This document shows, piece after piece, positions 14,348-15,846 of a stretch of 44,173 nt of DNA. This DNA comes from Planctomycetota bacterium (GTDB lineage Bacteria > Planctomycetota > Planctomycetia > Pirellulales > UBA1268). Numbering within the stretch: the first letter of the stretch is position 1; each line of letters starts with the position of its first letter. The stretch lies in assembly GCA_027592945.1 (NCBI GenBank), contig JAQCJP010000003.1, forward strand, positions 1-44,173. The letters are read 5' to 3'. The notes beneath the pieces were generated by a model. It saw only the letters and a program-made list of their open reading frames with translations. It made no database searches and was not told the origin of the DNA. The position numbers and the translations under genes are program-made.

Positions 14348-14583
14348 GGCACCTCCTGTTCGTCTGCCGCTTCCGCGCCGAGGCCGTGGGAGCCGCCCGC
14401 AGCGGCTGGTGCTGCTCATCGCCGCGGTGGTCTCGGCGGTGGCTGTGGGCAGACGATCATCCGCTGCCGCCTCGCCGTGGCGGGCGGCCCATCCACGCAA
14501 CGGAGGCGAACGAGCAGACTGACGGCGGCCCCGGCGGGTCCCACTTCCCCGCCTGGGCTGCGGTGGTTTACTGTCAGGGTCGT

Positions 14584-15846
14584 ATGAAGCATCCCCGCGA
14601 CATCGTCATTACCGGCCTCGGGGTCGTCAGCCCGATCGGGATCGGCTCCGAACCCTTCTGGGAGGCGCTCGCCGCCGGCCAGAGCGGGATTCGGCCGGTC
14701 GATCTCTTCGACGCCAGTTCCTTGCGGGTCAGGTTCGGCGGCCAGATCACCGGTTTCGACCCCAAGCAGTACGTGCGGCCGCGGAAGAGCCTCAAGGTCA
14801 TGAGTCGCGAAATCCAGCTCGGCTTCGCGGCGGCCGATCTGGCGATGGCCGAGGCGGGGATCGCCGCCGGCAGCGTCGATCCGGAACGGTTCGGCGTCGT
14901 GTTCGGCAGCGACATGATCTACGCCGACCTGGAGGATCTCGAGCAGACCTACCGCCGCTCCTCGCGCGACGGCCAGTTCGACTTCCTGCTCTGGTCGGAG
15001 GCGATCCACGAGGAACTCCATCCGCTCTGGCTGCTCAAGCATCTCCCCAACATGGCCGCCTCCCACATCGCCATCGCCCACGACGCCCGTGGCCCCAACA
15101 ACTCGATCGTGCTCGGCGATGTCTCGGGGCTGCTGGCCATCGCCGAGGCGGCCAGCGTCATCGGCCGCGGCTGGGCCGACGTGATGCTCGCCGGCGGCAC
15201 CGGCTGCCGACTCCATCCGACGGCCCTGGTGGCTCGGGGCGATGCGCTCCTCTCCCACCGAGCCGATGACTTCCGGGCAGCCTGCCGGCCCTTCGATCGC
15301 GACCGGGACGGACTGGTCAACGGCGAGGGCGCGGGAACGCTCGTGCTGGAGGCCCGCGAACATGCCGAGCGGCGGGGTGCGAGGATTCGCGGGGAACTGC
15401 TGGCCACCGCCGCTCGCTGCGAACCGGGAGCCCATCACCGGGGCCTGACCGGCAGCTCGGTGCGGCAGGCGATTCAGGCGGCCTGCCAGGCCGCCGGGCT
15501 CGACGCCAAGAGCGTGGGGCACGTCAACGCCCACGGTGTCAGCACCGTCGAGATGGATCGGGTCGAGGCAAAGGCGATCGCCGCCGAACTCGGCGACGTG
15601 CCTGTGACCGCTCCCAAGAGTAGCTTCGGGCACCTCGGGGCCGGCGGCGGGACCGTGGAGCTGGCCGCCAGCCTGCTGGGACTCGAGCGGGGCCTGGTGC
15701 CTGCGACGCTCAACTACGAGAATCCTGACCCCGAGTGCCCCGTCAACGTGGTCCATGGCGAGCCGCTGGCCGGCCGCCCCGCGACGGTGGTGAAAGTCAA
15801 CCTCTCCACGACTGGTCAGGCAGTGGCGGTCGTGGTGAAGACCTGA
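14584..15846 (+). CDS. Beta-ketoacyl-synthase homologue lacking the catalytic Cys
   Basis: 420 aa, same length and fold as FabF-type condensing enzymes: ITGLGVVSPIGIG at the N-terminus, PFDRDRDGLVNGEGAG, NAHGVSTVEMDRVEAKAI with its His, and KSSFGHLGAGGG with Lys and His. At the nucleophile position, where family members read TACxSG, the sequence is LGDVSG, placing Asp179 where the Cys should be. It therefore should not form an acyl-thioester. Chain-length-factor subunits of type II polyketide synthases also lack this Cys, usually having Gln, so a partner or regulatory role is possible. No acyl carrier protein or second synthase is adjacent. The ATG at 14584 fits the family start; the upstream ORF-track extension is discarded. 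Confidence 0.9.
   Translation: MKHPRDIVITGLGVVSPIGIGSEPFWEALAAGQSGIRPVDLFDASSLRVRFGGQITGFDPKQYVRPRKSLKVMSREIQLGFAAADLAMAEAGIAAGSVDPERFGVVFGSDMIYADLEDLEQTYRRSSRDGQFDFLLWSEAIHEELHPLWLLKHLPNMAASHIAIAHDARGPNNSIVLGDVSGLLAIAEAASVIGRGWADVMLAGGTGCRLHPTALVARGDALLSHRADDFRAACRPFDRDRDGLVNGEGAGTLVLEAREHAERRGARIRGELLATAARCEPGAHHRGLTGSSVRQAIQAACQAAGLDAKSVGHVNAHGVSTVEMDRVEAKAIAAELGDVPVTAPKSSFGHLGAGGGTVELAASLLGLERGLVPATLNYENPDPECPVNVVHGEPLAGRPATVVKVNLSTTGQAVAVVVKT

Follow-up and report, generated by a model that had tools for sequence, protein, structure and literature searches.

We propose that the Cys-less ketosynthase (KS) homologue encoded at 14584-15846 is probably the non-condensing subunit of a heterodimeric KS, akin in role to a chain-length factor (CLF), and that it pairs with the Cys-bearing KS encoded on contig C83 of the same genome. 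The proposal builds on features read directly from sequence: a FabF fold in which both the catalytic Cys and the gating loop are lost, an operon of other planctomycete families in which the gene stands beside a Cys-KS, and ACP-docking helices that are complementary between the two proteins. The gene lies in a stretch of 44,173 nucleotides from a Planctomycetota bacterium (contig JAQCJP010000003.1, assembly GCA_027592945.1), hereafter the window, where its features are located as follows.

14584..15846, + strand: ketosynthase homologue of 420 aa with Asp for the Cys, which we propose to be the non-condensing, ACP-docking half of a heterodimeric KS.
14776..14808, + strand: RPRKSLKVMSR, the ACP-docking helix (FabF region 1, K65/R68/K69), net charge +4; the Cys-KS of the same genome has -1.
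14908..15045, + strand: 46-residue segment corresponding to FabF 106-138; the partner-type Cys-KS has the same length here, FabF and CLF have 33 residues.
15118..15120, + strand: codon of Asp179, at the position of the catalytic Cys163 of FabF (alignment); Asp or Glu in 63 of 65 non-redundant relatives.
15532..15534, + strand: His317, the His303 of FabF, kept (alignment).
15616..15618, + strand: Lys345, the Lys335 of FabF, kept (alignment); CLFs keep this Lys too.
15631..15633, + strand: His350, the His340 of FabF (alignment); the genus of the window keeps it, most of the family having Asn.
15805..15816, + strand: STTG replacing the GFGG gating loop of FabF, with loss of Phe400 (alignment; loop function from PMC7138838).

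The product carries both ketoacyl-synthase domains in Pfam (PF00109, 137 bits; PF02801, 72 bits). It scores 301 bits against the FabF equivalog model TIGR03150, under the cut-off of 493.75, and hence does not classify as a FabF equivalog; it also departs from the catalytic make-up of FabF by having Asp179 for the Cys and STTG for GFGG. We rejected membership in PRK06519 and PRK06501, which we take to be the models covering the rhizobial pair of FabF-type proteins, because its scores are far below cut-off; that pair is thus not close in sequence. The AlphaFold model has a mean pLDDT of 90 and a pTM of 0.90, and the closest solved folds are those of FabF, with Z about 60 and rmsd about 2 Å, which places the protein in the FabF/thiolase fold. 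Ranking PDB folds does not separate KS from CLF (Z 59-61 for FabF structures, 59.1 for 1tqy_B). FabF structures align over nearly the full length of the protein, gapless around the active site, and put the Asp179 of LGDVSG on the Cys of TACxSG, as the earlier note on this DNA had claimed. That note was also right in stating that both His and the Lys are kept (H317, K345 and H350 are H303, K335 and H340 of FabF), but not that the Cys alone was lost. In the same alignment the NSFGFGG of FabF becomes LSTTGQ, i.e. the GFGG gating loop (PMC7138838) is gone with its Phe400, and this gate is lost throughout the class representatives of the Cys-less family. The reading frame stays open upstream to 14113, and homologues start at the ATG at 14584.

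The substitution is shared by the whole family. A search of the genome collection returned about 36 loci, 67-85% identical, and each site read among them has (G/S)DVS[GS]; whole-genome searches found matches to the window KS in 40/40 relatives and 118/118 members of the class. These counts give presence by match only, and Cys-intact relatives can score equally, hence active-site residues were read directly. Presence calls by E-value alone were rejected, since the Cys-intact KSx of family f36 scores like distant Cys-less members; the f36 match in G162, at 1e-97, carries a Cys when its residues are read. Among the 65 non-redundant relatives, none has Cys at the Cys position and all have the acid except two, with Ser and Asn. 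Lys335 is almost invariant in the family, most members have Asn for His340, and roughly one in four has Gln, Asn, Thr, Phe or another residue for His303; just 14 of the 65 retain both His, the window's genus being among the keepers. With Asp or Glu family-wide and the gene at full length, a sequencing error or a pseudogene is ruled out. Close homologues bearing a Cys, which would have pointed to such an error, do not turn up: the Cys is found only in deep relatives at the same operon position (L188, L229, L040). In four loci of genus g18, family f15 (L119, L124, L125, L127), Ser occupies the Cys site and Asp the residue before it, which leaves the alignment of the acid ambiguous. Two other loci hold a second D-type-like copy near the first and on the opposite strand (L011, 14823-16067; L013, 10112-10417); His340 is Asn in both of these copies, and His303 is Asn too in that of L013.

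These residues bear on whether the protein might be a KSQ-like malonyl-ACP decarboxylase, acting as a homodimer or as half of a heterodimer and making acetyl-ACP starters with Asp in place of Gln, which we consider unlikely, though conceivable for the window's genus. Decarboxylation by a KS requires both His, the Cys being dispensable, and the window's genus does keep both His and the Lys alongside its Asp, just as the KSQ loading domains of modular polyketide synthases keep them where the Cys is replaced. Yet the two His are retained together by a minority of the relatives, most of which have lost His340; the acid is present in nearly all of them and the Gln of KSQ in none; a carboxylate beside the malonyl carboxylate would be electrostatically unfavourable; and, unlike a KSQ domain, the window KS is stand-alone. 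Of the two roles first suggested for it, CLF-like or decarboxylating, the second is thus weakened, whereas the first is favoured by the gate loss, the operon pairing and the docking helices.

In other planctomycetes the Cys-less KS belongs to an operon with the order FabZ-FabG-ACP-FabZ-[Cys-less KS]-KS-hydrolase-GH3. Besides the KSs it encodes FabG, two FabZ-like proteins (the first a dehydratase) and a long ACP of about 128 aa, and often also a GH3 enzyme and an alpha/beta hydrolase. The Cys-less gene is directly upstream of the Cys-KS, whose active site mostly reads CLTACAAS, in 14 loci (L034, L037, L181, L182, L184, L185, L186, L187, L189, L190, L220, L223, L224 and L227). These span ten coded families, within the class (f20, f22, f23, f24, f25) and outside it (f47, f57, f69, f73, f76), plus two uncoded MAGs (L034, L037). 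The operon persists in family f21 and in the window's order too, but there the Cys-less gene is absent from it and stands alone elsewhere. We take this order to be Pirellulales, because the named loci L036, L046 and L063 group with genomes belonging to it. Contig C83 of the window's genome accordingly encodes FabZ, the long ACP, FabZ and the Cys-KS, with nothing between FabZ and the KS. The earlier note had seen no partner next to the gene, which holds within the window, but the likely partner is in the same genome; both the Cys-containing paralogue and the ACP that it had proposed to look for are there. The window-type and C83-type KSs also have in common the 46-residue segment, in a region of FabF that sits at the dimer interface and the acyl tunnel.

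Across a phylum-wide sample, all 16 genomes with a protein like the window KS (P0001-like) have a C83-type KS and a long ACP, which are present in 7 and 9, respectively, of the 102 genomes without such a protein; this co-occurrence is confounded by shared ancestry, and four of the 16 genomes are from family f36, of which the two read (L188, L229) carry a Cys-intact KS in the same operon slot, as does L040. On inspection, five of the exceptions lacking a P0001-like match proved to encode a Cys-less KS of greater divergence, next to the KS or close by.

Other neighbours of the gene were considered. The conserved gene upstream was rejected as a functional partner: it encodes an SNase-domain nuclease and is degraded in the window. 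Many sister loci have an intact copy of this thermonuclease-like gene immediately upstream of the KS (e.g. L001:9363-9929), and only traces of it are left at 14416-14507 of the window. The flanking GT87 and BBP7-type genes of the window showed no functional link to the KS. The GH3 enzyme ending the operon in L034 (13853-15616) has weak similarity to OlsH, the lyso-ornithine lipid synthetase (112 bits against a cut-off of 620), which is a hint at the operon product.

The two subunits differ in their ACP-docking helix. In AcpP-FabF crystals most ACP contacts are made by the non-reacting monomer, with Lys65, Arg68 and Lys69 constituting region 1 (PMC7138838). Position 65 is basic in 24/25 FabF, in 2/26 C83-type KS (13 of which are acidic there) and in 51/51 D-type Cys-less proteins, 50 of the latter being basic at position 68. 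The mean net charge of residues 62-73 is +2.0 in FabF, -0.6 in C83-type KS and +3.7 in D-type Cys-less proteins. The pattern is present in linked pairs, being weaker in L186 and in the two f76 pairs (KS +1 to +3), and in unlinked pairs as well; in the unlinked pair of the window's genome the C83 KS has -1 and the window KS +4. The same holds in f36, whose upstream KS retains its Cys: there the KS has -4 and -5, and its upstream partner +4 and +3. Planctomycete core FabF has kept its docking helix, at +2. The Cys-bearing subunit seems poorly able to dock ACP for its mate and the docking-capable subunit is without the Cys, such that the two would jointly provide one working site. Since ACP docks mainly opposite the reacting subunit, the complementary helices indicate an obligate KS/CLF-like heterodimer, an argument built on the geometry of E. 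coli FabF.

The docking helices are also relevant to the idea that the acidic residue performs a new chemistry in the KS fold (acyl-ACP hydrolysis, dehydration or cyclisation), like AmcG of cispentacin biosynthesis. There is a precedent in AmcF-AmcG for a KS partner with a role other than that of a CLF (PMC10698177), and the prevalence of Asp or Glu, the near invariance of Lys335 and the retention of His303 in most members suggest a carboxylate under selection and not mere decay. We nevertheless find this improbable, because a quarter or so of the family has replaced His303 and because the docking surface of the partner, which would bring ACP to the Asp site, is degraded.

Most genomes of the window's order have two Cys-less KSs, one of the D-type seen in the window and one paralogue of Glu type. 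In several genomes the gene of the latter comes shortly after that of the core FabF, and one might speculate that it is the core FabF (contig C136), and not the C83 KS, which the window KS regulates or has as its partner. This is very unlikely: in the loci read the D-type gene never adjoins the core FabF, which has a docking helix of its own and a 106-138 segment of 33 and not 46 residues. In the window's genome there are two similar Glu-type copies (about 80% by eye), both at contig ends, L089 (G000:C30, 10643-11977) and L088 (G000:C136, 2-712), whose combined neighbours match a single locus of G012 (FabF-hyp-KS-NusA). This suggests a strain mixture in the MAG, or a duplicate. Between the core FabF and the Glu-type KS, L088 encodes a protein without Pfam match (763-1746) that is conserved in several genomes of the order. 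As for a decaying, functionless FabF duplicate, the loss of the catalytic residue and of the gate and the orphan position in the window would fit, but a close match in all 118 class genomes searched, the high identity across genus and family, an enhanced docking helix and invariant columns across 56 diverse members make this scarcely tenable.

In a first tree the Asp/Glu proteins form one clade (49 rows, SH-aLRT 100) apart from FabF, C83-type KS, Streptomyces KS-alpha and the Streptomyces/actinorhodin CLFs. The window KS does not group with the actinobacterial CLFs: the clades are separate, each with support 100, and the CLF branch is long. The comparison with FabF and CLF sequences, proposed at the outset, hence gave the protein a clade of its own, apart from both. 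The actinorhodin CLF reference is identical to 1tqy_B, and the E. coli FabF reference differs from the FabF C163Q chain 9lpl only at the mutated Cys and at one Val/Ile position. A second tree, including members outside the class, was made by a quick search with SH-aLRT support and without one L042 protein (Asp, LDVGG; long branch). All 34 Cys-less rows fall on one side of a branch with support 100, and the Cys-intact L188, L229 and L040 attach beside the Cys-less clade. L040 (3508-4788) is a Wallbacteria tandem KS pair, of which the first KS has the Cys and both His, with Thr for Lys335. Deltaproteobacterial arrays of several tandem KS genes (L041, L042, L071) include KSs with SSYTGG or SSLDVGG at the Cys site, Cys-less proteins that are outside the planctomycete clade in the trees built.

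We infer the following mode of action for the heterodimer. The Cys-less subunit would offer a basic surface to the dedicated long ACP and form one half of the acyl tunnel; the Cys of the C83 KS would receive the acyl chain, and condensation with malonyl-ACP would take place there. The products are possibly long-chain or 3-hydroxyacyl chains. Historically, a tandem KS pair would have divided the work, the catalytic subunit losing its docking helix; the unserved active site of the other subunit would then have lost its Cys, next its gate and often His340; and later, in the window's order, the Cys-less gene would have left the operon. Under this proposal, the Cys was lost in one subunit because the docking surface of the catalytic subunit had already gone. 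A salt bridge between the acid and Lys335 is a plausible structural reason for an acid rather than Gln. Some observations speak against the heterodimer. In the window's order the gene pair is not linked, and the Glu-type paralogue downstream of the core FabF leaves room for an exchange or a sharing of partners. His303, Lys335 and, at the level of the genus, His340 are conserved beyond purely structural need, and so strict an acid, unlike the Gln of known CLFs, suggests a carboxylate with a job of its own. There is a slim chance that this carboxylate is catalytic within the heterodimer, Asp/Glu, His303 and Lys335 running a second reaction on the ACP-bound chain, e.g. hydrolysis, dehydration or isomerisation. 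If true, this would be a two-activity ketosynthase conserved across Planctomycetia.

KS partners devoid of Cys are known from KS-CLF pairs, ApeO-ApeC and AmcF-AmcG (for the last, PMC10698177). In the KS-CLF pairs of type II polyketide synthases (actinorhodin, 1tqy; ishigamide Iga11-Iga12, 6kxd) a Cys-less protein of KS fold is likewise found beside a Cys-KS, in operons likewise encoding an ACP, a reductase and a dehydratase, and the CLF also keeps Lys335 and has an altered gate. The likeness in adjacency comes from ten or more other planctomycete families, the genes being unlinked in the window's genome. At the Cys/His/Lys/His positions the actinorhodin and Streptomyces CLFs read have Gln-Asp-Lys-Arg, whereas the window KS has Asp-His-Lys-His and its family has Asp/Glu, usually His, Lys, and Asn or His, in a clade separate from the CLFs. 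Nor is the docking-helix complementarity of the planctomycete pairs seen in the Streptomyces pairs read. The aryl polyene ApeO-ApeC is likewise a KS/CLF pair in a reducing, fatty-acid-like pathway, but the A. baumannii ApeC amounts to roughly half a KS (PMC8358021) and the window KS is full length. The rhizobial acpXL-fabZXL-fabF2XL-fabF1XL operon for very-long-chain fatty acids (VLCFA) has a neighbouring pair of genes of FabF type, along with a FabZ and a dedicated ACP (PMC11901934), and is an analogy only.

The planctomycete proteins themselves have been seen before. Rattray et al. 2009 (PMC2649909) reported that the Rhodopirellula baltica FabF paralogues RB3714 and RB4527 have Asp and Glu, respectively, at Cys163, and the window KS fits this description. 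As in the window's genome, there is an acid at this position and there are two paralogues per genome; RB3714 is listed with Ile at the Lys position, whereas the window KS keeps the Lys. Both are entries in a table of ladderane genes, which assigns them no function and describes neither operon nor partner nor the wider family (PMC2649909). In the open-access literature searched we found nothing direct on a KS-CLF or VLCFA function in planctomycetes, and no report of the operon pairing, the relocation or the docking complementarity.

Our proposal offers a testable explanation for the acid-for-Cys ketosynthases of planctomycetes, noted in 2009 and left unexplained. If it is right, a CLF-like heterodimer arose independently of the antibiotic type II polyketide synthases, within a fatty-acid-like operon that is conserved in a whole bacterial class. 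The Cys-less family shows what appear to be the stages of this process, from a tandem pair with both Cys to the loss of the Cys, the loss of the gate and relocation. The proposal would also provide a rule for recognising obligate KS heterodimers whose genes are not adjacent, with the docking helix on one subunit and the Cys on the other, and would open a way into planctomycete lipids, which are poorly known.
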